Positions 2,454 to 45,068 of a stretch of DNA of 64,000 bases are shown here, in pieces. The stretch is from assembly GCF_014696925.1 (NCBI RefSeq), contig NZ_JACJQY010000003.1, positions 174,126-238,125 of the forward strand, written 5' to 3'. The notes below the pieces were generated by a model. That model searched no databases. It was not told the origin of the DNA and saw only the letters and a program-made list of their open reading frames with translations. Positions within the stretch are counted from its first letter, which is position 1; every line of letters begins with the position of its first letter. This DNA comes from Phormidium tenue FACHB-1050. Its GTDB lineage: Bacteria > Cyanobacteriota > Cyanobacteriia > Pseudanabaenales > Pseudanabaenaceae. Position numbers and translations under genes: made by a program.

Positions 2454-2687
2454 ACACCTACAGAATATTTAAACAGAATACTGAACAGGAAACTATTGAC
2501 GGACAAATGTGAACAGAAAGTTTCTGATAATACTAATAAATAACTATAACTTTCAACACCCCTATATTGCTAGCAGTAATTAACTAAGAACTAAATTTTG
2601 TCATTTTGATCGCCAATGTTAAAAATCATACCTACCTAAAAAGTTTACCGTTGAAGCCCTTTTTTGCAAATTTTCGCAAAATTGCTT

Positions 2688-3413
2688 TTAAGCGATCGCG
2701 GCTAAGACTCGTTTCATCACCTCTTGATAGGCTTCAGCAACATTACCGAGATCTTGACGAAAGCGGTCTTTATCTAGGATACGGGCAGTGGGGTCAGAGA
2801 TCTCCTTATCCCAGAGACGACAGGTGTCGGGGCTGATTTCGTCGGCTAGCAGTAAATGTCCATTAGCGTCAGATCCAATTTCCACCTTAAAATCAACGAG
2901 GATTAAATTACAGCGCTCAAAAAAAGTTTGCAGATGGTGATTAATATCTAGAGCTAGTTGTTTGAGTTGAGCAACTTGTTCAGGTGTGGCGAGATCAAGC
3001 ATGGATACATGGGCATCAGTAATTAGAGGATCGCCAAGGTCATCATTTTTATAGAAAAATTCGACTAGGGGCTGCTTGAGTGGTTGACCTTGTGCTAAAC
3101 CAAGGCGTTTGCAAATACTACCTGCGGCAATATTCCGAACCACAACTTCGATGGGCAATATCTGGACGGCGGCAACTTGCATCTCATTAGGTGAAACTTG
3201 CTTAATGAAGTGGGTCGCAATACCTTGGGCTTCCAGATACTGAAAAATGTGTGAGGCGATCGCGCAGTTCATTTCTCCTTTGTTGGCGATCGTGCCTTTT
3301 TTTAGAGCATTGAAGGCGGTTGCGTCATCTTTGTAGCGCGATAGCAAAATGTGGGGATCATCTGTTGTAAACAGGATTTTGGCTTTGCCTTCGTAGAGCT
3401 TGGTTCCACTCAT
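2688..3413 (-). CDS. purC: Phosphoribosylaminoimidazole-succinocarboxamide synthase
   Basis: 241-aa ORF, YEGKAKILFTTDDPHILLSRYKDDATAFNALKKGTI... and LILVDFKVEIG...LADEISPDTCRLWD are diagnostic PurC motifs. Confidence 0.96.
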   Translation of the reverse strand: MSGTKLYEGKAKILFTTDDPHILLSRYKDDATAFNALKKGTIANKGEMNCAIASHIFQYLEAQGIATHFIKQVSPNEMQVAAVQILPIEVVVRNIAAGSICKRLGLAQGQPLKQPLVEFFYKNDDLGDPLITDAHVSMLDLATPEQVAQLKQLALDINHHLQTFFERCNLILVDFKVEIGSDANGHLLLADEISPDTCRLWDKEISDPTARILDKDRFRQDLGNVAEAYQEVMKRVLAAIA

Positions 3414-3462
3414 GGATAGATATATGGCGATAGTAGTTGCTTAAGTATTCTATAGGATCGCC

Positions 3463-3513
3463 AACCCCACAAGATATTTGGGGCGCTTTGCGCCCCAAAT
3501 ATCTTGTGGGGTT
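3463..3513. terminator. Perfect 51-bp palindrome (23-nt arms, 5-nt loop) upstream of purC / downstream of pabB
   Basis: aaccccacaagatatttggggcg ctttg cgccccaaatatcttgtggggtt. Confidence 0.75.
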
Positions 3514-3575
3514 TAAGAACCAGATTTTTGATGACACGGCTTAGCCGCACCATCAAAAAATTTACAGTGAAGCCC

Positions 3576-4934
3576 TTAATTTAAGCCTAGTGCAGCCAGT
3601 TGAGCTTGGGCTTTTTGCAAAGATTCTAGCCATTCCCGATCGCTTATACTATCAGCAACTATTCCTGCTCCAACCTGTCCCCAGATATGATTGTCAGTCT
3701 TGAGTAAAGTGCGAATTAAAATATTCAGATCCATGTTGCCGCGCCTGTCAATATAGCCACAGGAGCCATAAAACAAACTGCGTCGCTGTGGTTCTAACTT
3801 TTCGACGATTTCCATACAGCGTACTTTTGGACAGCCCGTAATTGTTCCCCCTGGGAAAGTAGCCCGAATGAGATCTACCAACGTGCGATCGCGGCGTAAT
3901 GTCCCCACCACATTACTGACAAGGTGCATAACGTGGCTGTAGCGCTCGATCGCTAATAGCTCATCGACCTTAACGCTGCCCCATTCACAAACTCGCCCAA
4001 GGTCGTTACGCTCTAGATCGACTAGCATAATGTGTTCGGCTTGCTCCTTAGTACAGCCTAGTAATTCACTCTCAAATTCGAGATCTTTCTGTTCAGTTTT
4101 GCCGCGTGGTCTTGTACCTGCGATCGGACGAGTTTCGGCATGGCGATCGCGTAGGCTAACTAGACGCTCAGGCGAGACGCTAATTACCTCTCCCCAAGTT
4201 GTGCGCCAATAGCTTGCAAAGGGTGATGGATTAATCTTTTGCAAATGGCGATATAGTTGCCACCCATCCGAGTTCCAAGGGTATCCAAACCGCATCGAGA
4301 GATTTGCCTGAAAAATATCGCCAGCATAAATATGGTGTTTCGCTTTTTCCACCATGGCTTCATAGCCTTGTCGTTCTGGTAAATAAGTTGGAGTAGCTTG
4401 TACAGTGCGATCTTTACTAAGACAGGCAAGGGGCGTAAGCCCCTTGTTTTCTGCATTGCTAAAGCGATCGCCTAATTCCTTTAATTCAAGGCGATCGCTA
4501 GCGGCTAACCATACTGTTTCAGTTTGATGATCAACTACCGCAAAACTAGATGGCTCATACCAAAAGGCAACAGGAAAAGGCAAAGTATCAGGCTTGGTAT
4601 AGGGCAAGCGTTCAATTTCCCAAGCGAGGTCATAGCCTAACCATCCTAAATATCCTCCTGTAAATGGCAAATGATCAGGTAAATCAGAATGAGAATTTTG
4701 CATCCGCGATCGCAATTTTTCCAAACATGGCAAAATCTCACCAACTTCAGGAGTCCAAATTTGTCGAGGCTGCCCTGCGGCGATCGAATATCTTGCTAGT
4801 TTTGAAGAAACTGTATCAATGGCAGGGCTTTCTAGCAGAACTGCAATCGGTTCATGAGCATAGAGCGATTCCCATAGATCTGCACCTGTCATATTTGCTG
4901 GTAGCGATCGCTGAAGCCACAACCAATCGGTCAT
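3576..4934 (-). CDS. pabB: Anthranilate/para-aminobenzoate synthase component I family protein
   Basis: 452-aa ORF with the chorismate-binding signature (IFQANLSMRF, RPIAGTRPRGKT, ERNDLGRV, FPGGTITGCPKVRCMEII-like). Confidence 0.85.
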   Translation of the reverse strand: MTDWLWLQRSLPANMTGADLWESLYAHEPIAVLLESPAIDTVSSKLARYSIAAGQPRQIWTPEVGEILPCLEKLRSRMQNSHSDLPDHLPFTGGYLGWLGYDLAWEIERLPYTKPDTLPFPVAFWYEPSSFAVVDHQTETVWLAASDRLELKELGDRFSNAENKGLTPLACLSKDRTVQATPTYLPERQGYEAMVEKAKHHIYAGDIFQANLSMRFGYPWNSDGWQLYRHLQKINPSPFASYWRTTWGEVISVSPERLVSLRDRHAETRPIAGTRPRGKTEQKDLEFESELLGCTKEQAEHIMLVDLERNDLGRVCEWGSVKVDELLAIERYSHVMHLVSNVVGTLRRDRTLVDLIRATFPGGTITGCPKVRCMEIVEKLEPQRRSLFYGSCGYIDRRGNMDLNILIRTLLKTDNHIWGQVGAGIVADSISDREWLESLQKAQAQLAALGLN

Positions 4935-17223: not shown

Positions 17224-17787
17224 ATGATTGCTAATCCCAAATTTAATTACATATCTCCAGATGAATATCTCGAAATGGAGGAACAAAGTGATATCAAACA
17301 TGAATATATCGATGGATATGTTTATGCAATGGCTGGAGCAAACGATCCCCACGTTACGATCGCCTTGAATATGGCTTTTGCTGTCCGCAACCATTTGCGT
17401 GGATCTGGTTGCCGAGTTTATATGTCAGATATGAAAGCGCGGATAGATGCATTGAATCGATTCTACTATCCTGATGTGATGGTGACTTGTGATTTTAGAG
17501 ATACCCAAACTCCAAATCACAAGCGTTTTCCTAAACTAATTATCGAAGTTCTATCAAAATCTACGGAAGCATTTGATCGAGGTGATAAGTTTGCCGATTA
17601 TCAGCAACTAGATAGTTTAGAAGAATATGTTCTCGTAAATACAAAACGTCAACGAATTGATTGTTTTCGTAAAGAGGAGGGGCGCTGGTTTTTAGAAACA
17701 TATTCTGAAGAGCAAGAGAGTTTTCAACTATCAAGCATTAATTTTGAAGGCAAATTTAAAGATCTTTACGAAGACGTTAGTTTTTAA
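17224..17787 (+). CDS. Uma2-family (DUF820) PD-(D/E)XK nuclease-like protein
   Basis: 187-aa ORF; YISPDEYLEMEEQSDIKHEYIDGYVYAMAGA...YYPDVMVTC...LIIEVLSKSTEAFDRGDKFADYQQ. Confidence 0.9.
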   Translation: MIANPKFNYISPDEYLEMEEQSDIKHEYIDGYVYAMAGANDPHVTIALNMAFAVRNHLRGSGCRVYMSDMKARIDALNRFYYPDVMVTCDFRDTQTPNHKRFPKLIIEVLSKSTEAFDRGDKFADYQQLDSLEEYVLVNTKRQRIDCFRKEEGRWFLETYSEEQESFQLSSINFEGKFKDLYEDVSF

Positions 17788-18658: not shown

Positions 18659-21226
18659 ATGCCCGTACCCGTTGAACAGTTACTTAACTCCGAAATCCTC
18701 AAACCTGCTCGTTATTTAGGTAATGAGTTTGGCGCAGTGCATAAACCTTGGGAGCAGGCGATCGTGCGCTGGTCGCTGACCTATCCTGAAATTTATGAAG
18801 TAGGCGCGTCCAACTTGGGGCATATCATTCTTTACAGCATCATTAACTCTAAAGATGGTCAGCTATGCGATCGCGCTTATCTCCCTGCCCCTGACCTCTC
18901 CGCAAAATTACGTGAAACCAAGACAGATTTGTTTGCGGTGGAGTCCAAGCGATCGCTGCGGGACTTTGACATTTTAGGCTTTAGCCTCAGCTATGAACTA
19001 GGTGCAACCAATGTTTTAGAAATGTTTGACCTTGCCAATATTCCGATGACATGGCGTGAAAGGAGTGAATTGAGTATTGAGGAATGCCCATTAATTTTTG
19101 CAGGGGGTCAAACTGCCACTTCTAATCCTGAACCCTATGCTGACTTCTTTGATTTCTTTGCTCTCGGTGATGGAGAAGAACTATTACCTGAAATTGGAGA
19201 AGTTCTCAAAGCCGCTAAACTTGCAGGTAAAACTCGTCGTGAAACTTTACTAGATCTTGCCAATGAAGTTGATGGGGTTTACGTTCCAGAATTCTATGAT
19301 ATGGATGAGAAAACAGGCGCAGTCACTCCCAACCGTAGCGACGTTTCTCCCCGTGCATTGCGGCGGGTGGCTACACCAATGCCTGAGCATAGCATTGGCT
19401 TAGTTCCCCTTGTGGAAACCGTTCACGATCGCCTCGTCATCGAAATTAGAAGGGGCTGTACTCGCGGCTGTCGTTTTTGCCAACCAGGGATGCTCACCCG
19501 TCCCGCCCGTGATGTCGAACCCGAAAAGGTGGTTGACACGATTGAGAGAGCCATTCGAGAAACAGGATATAACGAATTTTCTTTGCTTTCCCTCTCTTGT
19601 TCCGATTATCTTGCGTTGCCATCGGTAGGCGTACAGATCAAGAATCGTTTTAAAGATGAACACGTTACCCTCTCTTTGCCTAGCCAAAGAGTCGATCGCT
19701 TTGATGAGAATATTGCCCATATGCTGCGTAGTGGCGATGGTCGTCAACAGGGACTGACATTTGCTCCTGAAGCTGGAACCCAGCGTCTGCGGGATGTTAT
19801 TAATAAGGGCTTGACCGATGAAGAGCTATTGCAAGGGGTGAAAACTGCCTATGTCGAAGGTTGGGATAAGGTCAAGCTCTACTTTATGATTGGCTTGCCG
19901 ACGGAAACCGATGAAGATGTGATTGGCATTGTCAATACGGTGGAATGGCTCCAAAATGAATGTTCGCAAAAGGGAAGGAAGAAGATTTCCTTTAACTTGA
20001 CTATTTCCAACTTTACACCCAAGCCCCATACGCCTTTCCAGTGGTTCACTGTCTCTAGTGGTGAGTTTGTGCGGAAGCAGCAATTGCTTCGCAAGGAATT
20101 TCGTCGCTTGAGTGGAGTGAAGGTGAACTACACCGAGGTTCGCATCAGTGCGATGGAGGATTTTGTTGGGCGGGGCGATCGCCGTTTGGGTAAAGTGCTG
20201 TATCGCGCATGGCAACTGGGTGCGGGTATGGACTCATGGTTTGAAAATACCGAAAAAGCTTTTGGTGCATGGACACAGGCGATCGCAGAGGCAGATCTGG
20301 TTTGGGATGCACCATCGCTAAAAATGGAGGATGCTTTACCTTGGGATCATATTGATACGGGTATCGATAAACAATGGCTGATCGAAGATTGGGAAAGAGC
20401 GATCGCGGCTCAGATTGTTCCTGACTGTTCCTTTGGTGGTTGTTCCCATTGTGGAGTCTGTGGTCCTGAATTTGGACATAACGAGGTGATTCCACCACCT
20501 GAAGTGCCGCCCATTTCTCTAGAGAAGCCCAAAGTACCGCCCAGAGTTCAACGTATTCGTCTCAAATTTGGCAAGCTAGGCGATATGAGTCTAATTTCTC
20601 ATCTAGACTTGCACCGATTCTTTCAACGTGCGGCTAGGCGTGCGGCTCTGCCCGTTGCTCATACTGAAGGTTTTAATCCTTTACCGCGTATTTCCATCGC
20701 GAAGGCTCTGCCCCTTGGTCAAACTAGTAGTGCTGAATTTGTGGATTTTGAGCTAACGGCAACTATACCCATTAAAGAATTTCAAGAACGCTTCAAAGCA
20801 GAATTAGATGCGGATCTGCCAATTTATGCGATCGAGGAAGTTCCTGTTCATGCGCCTTCTTTGGATGCGATGCTCGAAGTTGCTGAATATACGCTTACTT
20901 GTGCTTTTATTACGCCTAAGGAACGCAATGCGGCGGATATTATGGATTTACTAGAAGGTGCGAGTTATTGTGTGCTGGCGGCAACTTCGATCCAAATGCC
21001 AAAAGTCTCGAAATCAGGTCGTAATCAGATGCTGGAATTACGCGATCGCCTCTTTGCGATTAATGTAATTAACCCCGATCCTGAGTTGCCCAAAATCCAT
21101 TTTATGGGAAGTTGTAAGCCTGATAGCAATCTCAAACCTGAGTATGTGGTCTATATGATGAATAAGTATCTTGCCGAAGAAGATGAAATTAAATTAGTCA
21201 AGGTTCATCGCGAATCGATGCGTTAG
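18659..21226 (+). CDS. B12-binding-type radical SAM protein (TIGR03960-like) fused to TIGR03936-like C-terminal domain
   Basis: 855-aa ORF with EIRRGCTRGCRFCQPGM (CxxxCxxC context), LTFAPEAGTQRLRDVINKG, and C-terminal LKFGKLGDMSLISHLDLHRFFQRAARRA. Confidence 0.92.
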   Translation: MPVPVEQLLNSEILKPARYLGNEFGAVHKPWEQAIVRWSLTYPEIYEVGASNLGHIILYSIINSKDGQLCDRAYLPAPDLSAKLRETKTDLFAVESKRSLRDFDILGFSLSYELGATNVLEMFDLANIPMTWRERSELSIEECPLIFAGGQTATSNPEPYADFFDFFALGDGEELLPEIGEVLKAAKLAGKTRRETLLDLANEVDGVYVPEFYDMDEKTGAVTPNRSDVSPRALRRVATPMPEHSIGLVPLVETVHDRLVIEIRRGCTRGCRFCQPGMLTRPARDVEPEKVVDTIERAIRETGYNEFSLLSLSCSDYLALPSVGVQIKNRFKDEHVTLSLPSQRVDRFDENIAHMLRSGDGRQQGLTFAPEAGTQRLRDVINKGLTDEELLQGVKTAYVEGWDKVKLYFMIGLPTETDEDVIGIVNTVEWLQNECSQKGRKKISFNLTISNFTPKPHTPFQWFTVSSGEFVRKQQLLRKEFRRLSGVKVNYTEVRISAMEDFVGRGDRRLGKVLYRAWQLGAGMDSWFENTEKAFGAWTQAIAEADLVWDAPSLKMEDALPWDHIDTGIDKQWLIEDWERAIAAQIVPDCSFGGCSHCGVCGPEFGHNEVIPPPEVPPISLEKPKVPPRVQRIRLKFGKLGDMSLISHLDLHRFFQRAARRAALPVAHTEGFNPLPRISIAKALPLGQTSSAEFVDFELTATIPIKEFQERFKAELDADLPIYAIEEVPVHAPSLDAMLEVAEYTLTCAFITPKERNAADIMDLLEGASYCVLAATSIQMPKVSKSGRNQMLELRDRLFAINVINPDPELPKIHFMGSCKPDSNLKPEYVVYMMNKYLAEEDEIKLVKVHRESMR

Positions 21227-21233
21227 ACTAAGT

Positions 21234-21257
21234 AACAAGGGGCTTAAGCCCCTTGTT
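21234..21257. repeat. 24-bp perfect palindrome aacaaggggcttaagccccttgtt
   Basis: Self-complementary; nearly identical sequence occurs in frame inside pabB at 4427-4448. Confidence 0.8.
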
Positions 21258-21293
21258 TAAATATTACCAATATGACAAATTCAAGGTCTTAAT

Positions 21294-21851
21294 ATGGCTG
21301 AACTAACACTCGCTCAGAATTGCTTTCTAATTCATCACAAAATACCTTTATCTCAAGTTTTTGATGCGACTGGCATGAAAAAGAAGGAATACGAAGAGGT
21401 AATGAAAGAATTGGGTATGACTATTGCGATCGGAGTAAATCCTTGTAGAGCAATAGAAAGACATACGCTTAAAGATAAATACGGTAAGTGCATTCAATGT
21501 AAACCTGTTAACCTCGCTTTCCAGAAACGTTACAACGAGTCAGGATTTATCTATATCGCAAGGTCTGAGAGCTTGAAACTAATCAAAATTGGTACAGCAA
21601 AGGATACTGTAAAAAGGGAATATAGTCTAAATAATTTTCGGTACGGCGGTTGTAGTGATTGGAAAATTATGTTTAATGAACAATGCAATAAACATGGACG
21701 CATAGAATTTGAAGCACATCAAGCTTTAATGCCTCATAATGTTCATAAATCTTACTGGAAGCAGGATAATTTGGTTGAATGTAGTGAGCTTTTCGATTGT
21801 GAAGTTGAATTAGCTGTCAAAACTATTGAGGAAATTATCTTGCGATATTGA
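21294..21851 (+). CDS. GIY-YIG/T5orf172-like nuclease-domain protein
   Basis: 185-aa ORF; GFIYIARSESLKLIKIGTAKDTVKREYSLNN resembles the (F/Y)IY...KIG...R...L GIY-YIG/T5orf172 pattern; upstream CIQC pair. Confidence 0.65.
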   Translation: MAELTLAQNCFLIHHKIPLSQVFDATGMKKKEYEEVMKELGMTIAIGVNPCRAIERHTLKDKYGKCIQCKPVNLAFQKRYNESGFIYIARSESLKLIKIGTAKDTVKREYSLNNFRYGGCSDWKIMFNEQCNKHGRIEFEAHQALMPHNVHKSYWKQDNLVECSELFDCEVELAVKTIEEIILRY

Positions 21852-21870
21852 TAACTAAACAAGTTCTTGA

Positions 21871-22025
21871 ATACCGATCCTGAATTTCCGAAAATTCATT
21901 TCATGGGTAGTTGCAAGCCCGACAGCAATCTCAAACCTGAGTATGTGGTCTATATGATGAATAAGTATCTTTCAGAAGAAGATGAAATTAAATTAGTCAA
22001 GGTTCATCGCGAATCGATGCGCTAA
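21871..22025 (+). pseudogene. Duplicated, diverged 3'-terminal fragment of the upstream radical SAM gene
   Basis: 155 nt aligning with 21071-21226 (156 nt) through the stop codon; long identical stretches plus mostly synonymous differences and one missing base. Confidence 0.88.
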
Positions 22026-22037
22026 CAAATGTAGCAA

Positions 22038-22064
22038 TGAAGGCGGCGCGGAGCGCCGCCTTCA
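22038..22064. terminator. GC-rich palindrome tgaaggcggcgcggagcgccgccttca
   Basis: 12-nt arms, 3-nt loop between the fragment 21871-22025 and gltS. Confidence 0.75.
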
Positions 22065-22070
22065 CTTATT

Positions 22071-25000
22071 TTAGACCGTTGCTGCTACAGGCACTGCATC
22101 CGTAGCTTCAGGGCTATTCTGCTCCGAAGGTGGCACAACCTGCCAGAACTTCGGCAAATAGCTCGACCAATTATCGAGAATTTCCTTCGCTCTAGAACTA
22201 CCAGTATGCTCATAGCTGGATTGAATCAATTCCTTTAGCTGATTCTCACCTGCGGCGGTGCAAACCCGTTGGACTTTGAGAACTTCTTGGCTTAACCGCT
22301 CTTTGAACTTGCCATCAATATCAAGGAAGTAAGCAATCCCGCCTGTCATCCCAGCGCCAACATTACGACCTGTGGTTCCTAGAACTACAACTACGCCACC
22401 CGTCATATATTCACAGCAGTGGTCACCTGTCCCTTCCACTACTGCCTTTGCACCAGAGTTCCGCACTCCGAATCGTTCGCCAGCACGTCCATGTACAAAC
22501 AGATAGCCACCCGTTGCACCATATAAGCAGGTGTTGCCAATGATGGCATTGTCCGCAGGATTGAAGGTGCAATCAGGTTTTGGCTTGATGCTGATTGTGC
22601 CACCATTCATCCCTTTACCAATGTAGTCATTGGCTTCACCGACTAGAGATAGATTCAATCCATTGATATTGAATGCGCCGAAGCTTTGACCTGCTGCGCC
22701 CACAAATTCGAGATTGAGGTGGCTAGCCAGACCAGAGTTGCCATATTGCTTAGCGATCGCCCCTGATACTCTCGCAGGCACTGAACGATCGGTATTAACG
22801 ATCGCATAGGTTTTGCTTAAATCAGTTTGATTAGCGATCGCCTCCTGCACTTCGAGATCTGCCAAGATTTCATCATCCAGAACTGCACCATTGCTATGGG
22901 AAGTTGGAGAATGCTCTAACCAACTGCGATCGCTCTTGGTGTTGGGGAGATTGATGAGACAACCTAAATCTACTTGATTGAGATTGAGTTTAGCGAGTTG
23001 CAAGTCTTGGCGCTGTGCCAATAGGTCAGAACGTCCGATGATCTCTTTGAGGGATTTGTAACCGAGCTTGGCAAGGATTTGACGCACTTCTTCAGCAACG
23101 AAATAGAGGAAATTAACCACATGTTCAGGCGTTCCAGGGAAGCGCTTGCGGAACTGCTCTAGTTGCGAAGTTACACCAACAGGGCATTTATTAGTGTGGC
23201 AAACTCGCGCCATGATACAACCTTCAGCAATCATCGCCGCTGTACCAAAGCCGTATTCTTCACCACCGAGAAGAGCCGCGATCGCCACATCCCAGCCAGT
23301 TTTGAAACCGCCATCAACACGTAATAAAACGCGATCGCGTAGTTTGTTACCCATCAGCACCGTATGCACTTCTGCTAAACCAAGTTCCCAAGGTGAGCCA
23401 GCGTGCTTAATCGAACTTAGGGGTGAAGCGCCCGTACCGCCATCGTAGCCAGAGATTTGGATGATGTCGGCGTTTGCCTTAGCTACACCTGCGGCGATCG
23501 TGCCGATACCAATTTCCGATACTAGTTTTACAGATACTTTTGCGGTGGGATTGATCTGATGCAAATCATAAATCAACTGGGCGAGGTCTTCGATGGAATA
23601 GATGTCATGGTGTGGAGGAGGCGAAATTAGCGATACCCCTGGTTTGGAGTTTCGGAGCATGGCAATATAGCTGCTGACTTTTGGTCCTGGCAACTGTCCG
23701 CCTTCTCCTGGTTTCGCACCTTGAGCAACTTTAATCTCTAGTTGATTGGAACTGACAAGATAGGAAGGAGTAACCCCAAAGCGTCCCGACGCAATCTGTT
23801 TAATTGCGGAGTTAGCAGTGTCGCCATTTTTTAGCCCCTTGAGATGAGGGAATGTTGCGGAAATGCCATTAGCATCTACATCATTGATGGGCAAATAGCG
23901 AATTGGATCTTCGCCACCTTCACCACAGTTAGATTTACCACCGACGCGATTCATGGCGATCGCAAGGACTTCATGGGCTTCTCGACTCAAGGCTCCGAGG
24001 GACATAGCTCCTGTACAGAAGCGGCTGAGGATTTCAGAAACATCTTCGACTTCTTCTAGGGGAATGTTAGGGCGATCGCTCTTAAATTCTAATAAATCAC
24101 GTAGAGCCGTTGGCGTGCGATTCTGTAACTGTGTCCGATAGACTTCGTAATGGTCGTAGCCATCACCAGCCACTGCTTTATGCAAAGCCTTTGCCATTTC
24201 AGGACTGTTCATGTGGTACTCACCTGTGGGGCGATACTGCATGAAGCCGTAGTTCTCTAGCTTTTTGATTTGCAATTCAGGGAAGGCTTGAGAATGGAAA
24301 CTGAGTAATTCCGATGCGATATCAGCGAAGTTAACACCACCAACGCGGGAAACTGTTCCCTTAAAGCAATTGGTAATTACTTCTTCGCCAATACCGATCG
24401 CCTCAAAAATTTGTGCGCCACTGTAGCTCGATAGGAGCGAAATCCCCATCTTGGAGAGAATCTTCAACAATCCGCCTTCAACTGCTTTACGATAGCTATC
24501 TTGAACTTGGGTAATTGTCAAAGCCTTGATTTTGCCCTGTTGCATTTGCATTTGGGTCTTGGCTTTACCCCACCATTGGCGTGTGGTCTCAAAAGCTAGA
24601 TAAGGACAGATCGCACTAGCTCCATAACCAATCAAGCAAGCAAAATGATGGGTACTCCAACATTGAGCCGTTTCCACAATAATCGAAGCCTTCATGCGAA
24701 GCCCTTCGGCACAAAGACGGTGATGCACAGCACCCACAGCTAATAGAGGGGGAATATAGGCACTTTCTGCACTCAAGTTGCGATCGCTTAAAATCAACAA
24801 TTTTGCGCCATCGCGAACAGCCTTCACTGCTGCATCACTGAGCTTAGCGATCGCCTGTTTTAGTCCATTAGCTCCTGAGGCGATCGGGAACAACATATCT
24901 AATTTTGCCGAAGCAAAACCTAATGATTGTAGTTCCTCAAGCTCTGCTTCATTGATTACGGGACTCTTTACCTTAATCTGATTAGCCGCATCAGGAGTGG

Positions 25001-26729
25001 CAAGGAGCAAATTCGCTCTTTCTCCTAAGAACATCGATAAAGACATCACCGTTCCCTCACGCAGAGGATCGATCGGTGGATTAGTTACCTGTGCAAAGCG
25101 CTGCTTGAAGTAGTCATAGAGCAGGTGTGGACGTTGTGATAAAAATGCTAGCGGCGCATCATCACCCATGCAGAAGACTGGCTCCTTTCCATCTTGAGCC
25201 ATCGCTTCAATCACCATTTCCACGTCTTCGAGGGTGTAGCCAAAGGCGGTTTGATAGGTAAGAACTTTCTGCTCATCAAGGGTTGGCGCTTCTGCAAAAG
25301 GTTTGACCTCCAGATTCTTCCGATATTGTTTAATCCATTCACCATAGGGATGAGCCTTGGCGACTCGCTCCTTTATTTCCCAGTTGTGGAGAATCTCATG
25401 GGTTTGCAAATCCACAGCGATCGTTTGTCCAGGACCAAGGCGACCTTTTTCAATGATATCCGTTTCAGGAATATCCACAGTTCCTGCTTCTGAGCTAACG
25501 ATCACCATGCCATCATTAGTAATCATGTAACGAGCAGGACGTAAGCCATTGCGATCCAGAGCCGCACCGACAATTTTGCCATCACTAAAGGCTAGCAAGG
25601 CGGGTCCATCCCAAGCCTCTTGCAAGCCACTGTAATATTCGTAGAAATCAACAATTGCTTGGCGATCGCTTAAATCTGGTTGATTCTCATAGGCTTCTGG
25701 CACAAGGATCATCATCGCCTCAAGCGGACTATGCCCTGTCTCAATTAGCAATTCAAAAACGTGATCGAGCGTTGCCGAATCGCTCTCATTTGGTTTAAGA
25801 ATAGGAAGTAAATCCTTGAGGCGATCGCCCTTTGCGTCTACCCAAGTAGGATGGGTGAGATCACCTTGACGAGCAAGGAACCAATTGGTATTTCCCTGCA
25901 AAGTATTAATTTCACCATTGTGACCCAGAAAACGCATCGGTTGAGCAAGGGGCCATTTGGGTAAGGTGTTGGTGCTAAAACGACGGTGATAGATTGCATA
26001 AGCCGAGACATAATCGGGATTTTGAAGGTCTGCATAAAACGCATCTAATACAGCTGATCGCACCATCCCCTTATAAATTACGGTCGCGTTAGATAGAGAT
26101 GGGACATAAAAGTCGCTAGGGAGATCAGGAGCGAGCTTTTTGACCTCAAGTTTGATGCGGCGACGAGTAATGTAAATCGCTCTTTCAATCTGATCGAGTT
26201 TTTGATGATCGGCATCAGCCACGAAAATCGCTTGCTCAATCTGGGGCTGATTTTCCCTAGCTTGCACACCCAAGACCTCTGGATTAACAGGCACAATTCT
26301 CCATCGTAGGAGCTTTAAGCCTTCTTCTGAAGCAATTCTTTCGGTGATTGCACGACATTTAGCTGCATGATCGTGATCCTGTGGCAGGAAAAACATCCCC
26401 AAAGCTGAATGCTCAGGATCAATGGTCAAATCTGCAAATTCCTTTTGTAACAAAGCCCAAGGAATTGCGGTCATCAAACCTGCACCATCTCCCGAATCTT
26501 GATCGGCACTACATCCGCCGCGATGCTCCATACAAGTCAGAGCTTTTAGGGAATTGCTCACAATTTTATGGCTAGCACGACCTTCTTTGTCCGCAATAAA
26601 TCCTACCCCACAGGCATCACGCTCTTCCACTAGCCAATAGGGACCTTGGACAAGATTAGTAGTTCCAGACTGATTAGACTGACTTGTATTCACGCGGCTC
26701 ACTTCCATCGGATTATCTGTTGCTATCAA
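22071..26729 (-). CDS. gltS: Ferredoxin-dependent glutamate synthase large subunit
   Basis: 1552-aa ORF; N-terminal ...[22 protein letters not shown] (class II amidotransferase Cys), FMN/3Fe-4S region [16 protein letters not shown]-terminal GXGXG-type repeats. Confidence 0.94.
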
Positions 26730-29499: not shown

Positions 29500-30081
29500 G
29501 TGACTATGATTGTTGCAAGTCCTTTGCTCACAATGGCGGAATATCTTGCTTATGATGATGGAACAGATGCAAGGTATGAATTAGTAAATGGAGAATTAGT
29601 GGCGATGGCACAGCCTACAGGAATTCATGGCGGCATGAGTGAATTTGTTAATGATAACTTTCGTTTAGAAATTCAACGTTTACAGTTATCTTTAGTTTCT
29701 AAGCAAGATTTAATTGCGGTGCAAACGGGGCGAGTCGGTGGCAAAATTACCTGTCGGGTTCCTGATGTGGTAGTAATTACATCAGATCAGTGGCAGGATA
29801 TGAGATTCCGCGAGGCAGTATTAACTGACTCGGTTCCACTTTTAGTTGTAGAAATCGTTAGCGATAGTACTCGCAATATTGACTATCGCAAGAAAAGAGC
29901 AGAATACAATGCAATTGAAATTCCTGAATATTGGATTATCGATTTTAGCGATCGCAAAGTGACAGTTTTATTGCTTGAAGATGGACTATATGAAGAAACA
30001 TTGTATCGAGGTGACGAAATAATTAAATCTTTACTATTTACCGAGTTAAAGCTAACTCCTGAGCAAATTTTTAAAGCCTAG
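29500..30081 (+). CDS. Uma2-family (DUF820) protein
   Basis: 193-aa [35 protein letters not shown]...[12 protein letters not shown]...[35 protein letters not shown]. Confidence 0.93.
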
Positions 30082-42946: not shown

Positions 42947-43062
42947 TATAGCTATAGCCATCTGTATCAGGACAAATCAAAACCCAAATAGTGTGAGGCG
43001 GCGCGAAGCGCCGCCTCACACTATTTGGGTTTTATGTCCTAACAAGAATGGCGACAGCTATA
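42947..43062. mobile_element. MITE-like element A, copy 1, with 55-bp palindrome 42979-43033
   Basis: tatagctatagccatctgtatcaggaca...tgtcctaacaagaatggcgacagctata: imperfect ~27-bp TIRs. Confidence 0.72.
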
Positions 43063-43169
43063 TATGGCTGCCATCGATTGTGTTAGGACACAAGAAAAAC
43101 CCAAGAAGATAATGGCGGCGCGAAGCGCCGCCATTATCTTCTTGGGTTTTACACTTGGCAACAGCTATA
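43060..43169. mobile_element. MITE-like element A, copy 2, in tandem with copy 1; palindrome 43096-43150
   Basis: atggctgccatcgattgtgttaggaca...ttggcaacagctata. Confidence 0.7.
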
Positions 43170-44942: not shown

Positions 44943-44955
44943 AATACATTGCAAA

Positions 44956-45068
44956 TATAGCTGCCGTCGATTGTGTTGGACAAAAGCAAAACCCAAGAAG
45001 ATAATGGCGGCGCGAAGCGCCGCCATTATCTTCTTGGGTTTTATGTCCTCATACTGGCGACAGCTATA
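44956..45068. mobile_element. MITE-like element A, copy 3, flanked by direct repeat; palindrome 44988-45042
   Basis: tatagctgccgtcgattgtgttggaca...atgtcctcatactggcgacagctata; 12-nt direct repeat atacattgcaaa at 44944-44955 and 45066-45077. Confidence 0.82.

Follow-up and report, generated by a model that had tools for sequence, protein, structure and literature searches.

A GIY-YIG nuclease gene between two copies of a radical SAM gene end in the cyanobacterium Phormidium tenue: a probable homing-type unit that restores its host gene

Introduction

Mobile open reading frames (ORFs) forming 'gene hybrids' with the genes they enter have been described from fungal mitochondria, at atp6 of Allomyces macrogynus and at atp6, atp9, cox2 and nad3 of Glomus sp. 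(PMC3630166). In these hybrids a foreign C-terminal end completes the host gene, an ORF for a LAGLIDADG or GIY-YIG endonuclease follows, and the displaced native C-terminal end persists downstream as a relic. Free-standing GIY-YIG homing endonucleases are also known from T4-like phages, in which SegA-SegG spread to alleles without the gene (PMC2988022). Here we describe a locus from Phormidium tenue FACHB-1050 in which a GIY-YIG family nuclease gene lies between the 3' end of an intact radical SAM gene and a second copy of that end. The stretch of DNA analysed, referred to below as the window, comprises 64,000 nucleotides (nt) of contig NZ_JACJQY010000003.1; the contig measures 238 kb and the whole cyanobacterial genome 5.6 Mb, and the DNA is not mitochondrial.

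We propose that the host-gene 3' end and the nuclease gene probably form one mobile unit, located in the radical SAM 3' end and spreading as a homing gene. Insertion with restoration of the host end is well supported by comparison of related loci, and homing-type cleavage is the driver that we infer.

Results

A gene end repeated across a nuclease gene

The last ~50 codons and the stop of the radical SAM gene, which is 2,568 bp long, recur downstream as an ungapped direct repeat (21075-21238 versus 21874-22037; 89% identity over 164 nt, spacing 799), recovered by blastn within the window at 92% over 151 nt (E 3e-57). The first 54 nt of the copies are 83% identical with mainly third-position differences, and the 3' part is almost identical (96.8%); between the proximal tail (P) and the distal tail (D) the proportions of synonymous and nonsynonymous differences (pS and pN) are 0.37 and 0.024. 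The repeat, its mainly synonymous 5' part, its near-identical 3' part and the GIY-YIG/T5orf172-like ORF between the copies had all been recognized in a first-pass annotation of the sequence and were confirmed. The same annotation had taken the copy to be one base shorter and frameshifted; this was a misalignment, as D retains an open 52-codon frame (21867-22025) with the same stop position as the host gene. The features of the locus are as follows:

18659-21226, + strand: host gene for a B12-binding-type radical SAM protein, a TIGR03960 + TIGR03936/DUF2344 fusion (TIGR03960, E 2.2e-179; TIGR03936, E 1.1e-51), intact
21075-21226, + strand: proximal tail (P), first repeat copy, serving as the radical SAM gene's working 3' end, from the repeat alignment
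21234-21257, + strand: stem-loop AACAAGGGGCTTAAGCCCCTTGTT, terminator-like, directly after the host stop, read from the sequence
21294-21851, + strand: GIY-YIG family nuclease gene (T5orf172), 185 amino acids (PF10544, E 9e-8)
21852-21873, + strand: junction spacer AACTAAACAAGTTCTTGAATAC, similar in five species, with homology to the host gene beginning within it at ~21863
21874-22025, + strand: distal tail (D), an in-frame, chimeric relic comprising the final ~50 codons and stop of the host gene, the rest of which is absent
22038-22064, + strand: terminator-like hairpin after the relic, also found after the relic in the related genome G022
22071-26729, - strand: gltB (glutamate synthase large subunit; named by eye), the convergent downstream neighbour

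The stem-loop at 21234-21257 was not flagged by a terminator scan. The only ORF between the two tails is that of the nuclease, in an insert of ~0.8 kb without an integrase or recombinase gene, and it is a separate ORF beyond the host stop, outside any intron or intein. The window contained no Rfam match, and an RNA element or intron was rejected on this ground. The match of the nuclease to the T5orf172 domain exceeds the curated cut-off. The protein has an N-terminal Cys/His cluster (C51, H57, C66 and C69), and Y87, KIG98-100, R108 and E138 are invariant, their putative catalytic role being assigned by eye. A search of solved structures with the nuclease profile gave no meaningful match. In ~440 kb of mostly unselected sequence from the genus, a gene tail copied downstream was found nowhere else, apart from one purposely fetched rca copy in genome G009, and the radical SAM repeat thus exceeds chance.

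Distribution of the unit among related genomes

The locus was compared with 25 other genomes of the window's genus (Pseudanabaena, as judged from named records); the window's own genome is G000 in these comparisons. An arrangement common to all relatives had been named in the first-pass annotation as evidence against insertion. The unit of nuclease gene and tail copy is instead patchy across the genus, and no more than 5 of the genomes searched in it had the full-length nuclease gene. G022 has the same gene order as the window, with a decayed relic (50% amino acid identity) and the same neighbour gltB, which adjoins the radical SAM locus directly in G022 alone among the compared relatives. In G021 the host tail and the nuclease gene are followed by a Uma2 gene, and there is no relic. 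In G010 and G011 a GHKL ATPase gene replaces most of the nuclease gene and is followed by a C-terminal remnant of the latter and by the relic; G011 additionally retains an N-terminal nuclease remnant beyond the relic. G006, represented by a short contig, keeps a decayed relic. In G022, G010, G011 and G006 a similar junction, immediately beyond the nuclease stop or remnant, precedes the start of the relic, such that the start of D past this stop, after the common junction GATAACTAGACAAGTTCTTGAAT or close variants, is seen in five species. The remains in G010, G011 and G006 are, as read here, element-derived. Where the host gene was located in the remaining genomes of the genus, unrelated sequence follows it.

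The GHKL ATPase gene (L044 4014-6047 and L050 9264-11297, in G010 and G011) resembles BbrUII-type restriction enzymes. It is 95% identical between the two species, whose radical SAM genes are ~80% identical, and along these loci identity rises abruptly over the final bases ahead of the radical SAM stop codon and declines at the nuclease remnant.

Exchange of the host tail between sister genomes

The sister-strain comparison proposed in the first-pass annotation succeeded in part. A pair with and without the nuclease gene exists in G021 (carrier) and G002, but in none of the relatives compared does the radical SAM gene run straight into the sequence that follows 22025 in the window. The host gene body of this pair is 96.8% identical and its last 45 codons 80.0%. 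Identity drops from a break at about codon 811 through to the stop, after which G021 has the nuclease gene; the flanks rejoin just before the same Uma2 gene. Third-position differences in the tail are 0.60, 0.40 and 0.33 per 15 codons, with a maximum of 0.33 elsewhere in the gene. This drop is the largest of any close pair, the next being -5.4 points (G013/G009, both without the unit), and across all species pairs the last 45 codons are among the least congruent segments of the gene (rank 2 of 56 windows).

At 0.83, synonymous divergence in the G021/G002 tail is what is usual between species of the genus (mean 0.61, maximum 1.11). The tail therefore resembles an allele of foreign origin in one member of the pair rather than an end designed to be resistant. 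The earlier description of the host end as "recoded" is not upheld, and recoding against cleavage was rejected on two grounds, the genus-typical divergence and the lack of a carrier-specific signature in the tail comparison.

Movement of the nuclease gene

The divergence of the nuclease gene does not track that of its host. Its synonymous divergence (dS) and that of the host gene are 0.63 vs 0.33 for G000-G022, 0.53 vs 0.88 for G000-G021, 0.52 vs 1.22 for G021-G022 and 0.05 vs 1.64 for G010-G014, and the ratio of nonsynonymous to synonymous divergence (dN/dS) between nuclease copies is 0.15-0.39. These values support transfer of the gene between species and its retention under purifying selection. 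Two copies lie beside a Uma2 gene at the rca locus (G010:C55 and G014:C245), where relatives have no nuclease gene. A comparison with 390 cyanobacterial genomes detected the gene, at comparable similarity, in no genus but this one. No homologue was found in the phages or viral contigs searched, and a phage or viral origin was rejected for this reason. One distant homologue lies on a Bradyrhizobium plasmid, beside Ku/LigD genes and in a different layout.

Similar arrangements at other host genes

To look for gene ends repeated on the far side of a T5orf172 ORF, we took 60 further short cyanobacterial loci of this family, and we scanned 254 loci (1.3 Mb, partly redundant) for downstream copies of gene tails. 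The 60-locus search yielded the mfd arrangement in G329 and a mirrored one in G255. Besides the radical SAM and mfd cases, the 254-locus scan produced a single arrangement, rca-Uma2-relic in G009; a ruvA-Uma2-relic arrangement, also in G009, came from a scan of 30 Uma2 loci. The principal loci are:

G329, locus L194: mfd at 2495-4273, GIY-YIG gene at 1773-2465, VapBC-type pair at 1108-1741, mfd tail relic at 924-1086
G255, locus L265, 10459-15711: gene for an ABC-transporter ATPase, preceded by two relics of its 5' end that lie around a GIY-YIG gene, a DUF4351 gene and a small membrane-protein-like ORF
G009, locus L094: rca at 1014-1904, Uma2 gene at 304-867, rca relic at 89-170
G009, locus L308: ruvA at 594-1295, Uma2 gene, ruvA relic at 2053-2112

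G329 belongs to another cyanobacterial family and has the same layout as the window: mfd, a GIY-YIG gene (230 amino acids), a VapB/VapC-type pair and, as a relic, the final ~40 mfd codons. In its relatives G220 and G348 a VapBC-type pair directly follows mfd, and neither a GIY-YIG gene nor a relic was detected there. G034 carries mfd, a MazE/PIN pair and an mfd relic. The G255 locus is a mirror image, with relics of the 5' end of the ABC-transporter gene across the GIY-YIG and DUF4351 genes. That these 5' relics are cut at one codon was considered and rejected, as the outer relic extends further in another frame, and no site specificity is claimed. Two other candidates were also rejected: L192 has only a zinc-ribbon motif in common, and L169 contains interspersed repeats.

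The rca relic in G009 starts at GCGATCGCC, a cyanobacterial HIP1-type palindrome that is also present in the proximal rca tail. For ruvA, an empty site is available in G002, where the gene tail runs into the DNA that follows the relic in G009 (88% over 207 nt). Compared with G002, G009 thus has a tail end and a Uma2 gene inserted ahead of native downstream DNA, and its ruvA relic is the native end, because it joins the same downstream DNA as the G002 tail. Together with the G021/G002 sisters and the movement of the nuclease gene between species, this empty site bears out the earlier proposal that a nuclease gene was inserted with a host 3' end.

From these loci we tentatively raise the possibility that cyanobacteria contain 'end-restoring' cassettes, each a host-gene end with a nuclease or toxin gene (GIY-YIG, Uma2, VapBC or restriction-like), that would insert into conserved gene ends, rebuild them and leave a relic. 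If true, such cassettes would provide a transposase-free dispersal route for families such as Uma2, which has 61, 76 and 99 genes in G009, G002 and G022, respectively. The mobile-unit reading itself, if correct, would show how a nuclease gene gets into conserved genes (radical SAM, mfd, ruvA, rca) and leaves them whole. We know of no mobility mechanism for Uma2 family genes, nor of one for the spread of toxin-antitoxin genes in cyanobacteria; the mobile-unit reading would offer a testable mechanism for both.

Two further candidate Uma2-like genes were noted by eye in the window (17224-17787 and 29500-30081). Elsewhere in the window, two intergenic direct repeats of 90 bp (43062-43151 and 44955-45043; 94% identical), resembling miniature inverted-repeat transposable elements, flank a gene that by eye resembles an MscS-type channel with a cyclic-nucleotide-binding domain.

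Discussion

A homing model and the evidence that bears on it

In the model that we favour, the nuclease would cleave alleles that lack the unit within their tail, possibly near codons 803-812. The break would be repaired from the carrier, and the nuclease gene would be copied with flanking tail sequence, giving chimeric P and D tails. P, having either arrived together with the nuclease gene or replaced the earlier tail during insertion, would complete the host gene, and D would be the remainder of the displaced host end, later partly exchanged. The unit would then spread with drive, as free-standing homing endonuclease genes do. Such a model accounts for the chimeric P and D tails, the tail exchange between G021 and G002 and the incongruent nuclease phylogeny.

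Which end is native in the window itself remains ambiguous on the phylogenetic comparison that the first-pass annotation had suggested. P groups with the tails of the close relatives G022 and G005; D is chimeric, its 5' 54-60 nt resembling other species and its 3' part the P tails of G000 and G022. Break repair predicts this direction of chimerism, with a 5' part like other species and a 3' part like the host lineage. Of the earlier statement that the host gene was kept intact and its old end left as a relic, the first half holds, and the second holds for the ruvA-Uma2 analogue but is ambiguous in the window.

Several observations weigh against the homing model. P has the look of the native end in the window and D that of a partly foreign one, and the near-identity of the 3' part of D to P needs later gene conversion or a close donor. 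The G021/G002 tail exchange is compatible with either direction, and the tail comparison revealed no cut-site signature specific to carriers. The element-free sisters G013 and G009 also have an unusually divergent tail (pS 0.74 vs 0.25); tails can thus recombine without a unit now present, although a lost unit is perhaps the cause in this pair. The copies at G010:C55 and G014:C245 sit at non-homologous places, and inspection found no host-tail copies there. The cargo in G034 and at rca and ruvA is a toxin-antitoxin pair or Uma2 rather than a GIY-YIG nuclease. Finally, structure prediction for the nuclease was useless, with a predicted local distance difference test (pLDDT) score of 35.

Alternative explanations

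The main rival, which we regard as rather unlikely, is passive capture. A linear foreign fragment with a host gene end and the adjacent gene would have entered by homology-facilitated illegitimate recombination, the nuclease being mere cargo, and its later spread would be by ordinary homologous recombination. The joint would be homologous on one side and illegitimate inside the host tail on the other, leaving a tail relic. This process has been described in competent bacteria (PMC3240628) and would explain relics with any cargo (VapBC, MazE/PIN, Uma2 or GIY-YIG), the absence of a relic in G021 with its joint just before Uma2, and the G014 copy, which has a truncated hydrolase gene on one side and a preserved Uma2-rca arrangement on the other. 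The radical SAM, G021, rca and ruvA junctions are all compatible with one homologous and one low-homology joint, and the GCGATCGCC shared by the rca relic and the proximal tail is as expected of a short-homology joint. However, the inserts are compact, their ORFs are complete and the relics start ~20-135 bp past the cargo stop; the cargo found is always nuclease-like or toxin-like; and one nuclease family occupies the same host position in several species with an incongruent phylogeny.

It is highly improbable that the nuclease gene is a resident host or defence gene, and that the exchanged tail and the relic are products of gene ends being recombination hotspots in general. The restriction-enzyme-like GHKL ATPase gene at the same site in G010 and G011, more similar than its hosts, would fit such a hotspot, as would the Uma2 and VapBC genes at sites of this kind and the tail difference in G013/G009. 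Against this, the full-length nuclease gene is patchy, with five carriers among the searched genomes of the genus and, at comparable similarity, none in any other genus of the 390 cyanobacterial genomes, and its divergence does not track that of the host. A tandem duplication of the radical SAM gene, its second copy deleted to the last ~50 codons, is a common origin of partial gene copies beside a gene, yet is just as improbable here, and the deleted full-length paralogue envisaged in the first-pass annotation is disfavoured with it: a common junction follows the nuclease stop in five species, nothing further of the radical SAM gene was detected, G021 has the nuclease without a relic and its sister G002 has neither, and four additional host genes have end copies, in every case with nuclease-like or toxin-like genes in between.

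Comparison with known systems

Some integrative islands restore the gene they enter by replacing its 3' end on insertion, and need an integrase or recombinase and att sites. The insert described here differs in lacking all three. Homology-facilitated illegitimate recombination, by combining a homologous and an illegitimate joint, can yield a host-tail relic after an insert, but it is an outcome rather than an element and does not predict recurrent nuclease cargo at one site (PMC3240628).

Like the Seg endonuclease genes of T4, the gene in the window is an intronless member of the GIY-YIG superfamily that lies between genes (PMC2988022). Seg endonucleases co-convert flanking sequence, for which the tail exchange between G021 and G002 may be a counterpart, with a putative direction and a putative link to the nuclease. 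Unlike the present locus, the Seg genes reside in phage genomes and act on cut sites hundreds of bp away, with no duplicated host end mentioned in the text searched (PMC2988022). The nuclease studied here is a T5orf172-branch protein, and no homologue of it was found in phages.

The mobile ORFs of fungal mitochondrial gene hybrids are the nearest precedent. In the literature searched, which covered few subscription journals, no report of such hybrids in bacterial chromosomes was found. We suggest that the locus works like a gene-hybrid homing element, and do not claim membership of that class because cleavage is putative and the native end in the window is ambiguous. As in the fungal hybrids, a C-terminal end that completes the host gene is followed by an endonuclease ORF, and the differences between the two ends are mostly synonymous (PMC3630166). 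A downstream relic is also present, its native status being shown here for ruvA-Uma2 only. The completing end is foreign in the fungal hybrids; here the G021/G002 tail looks foreign in one sister, and P in the window groups with close relatives. Unlike the mitochondrial hybrids, the present cases lie on bacterial chromosomes, at several host genes, and with cargo that also includes Uma2, VapBC or a restriction-like gene. If our reading is correct, it would extend a kind of mobile element known from fungal mitochondria to bacterial chromosomes.

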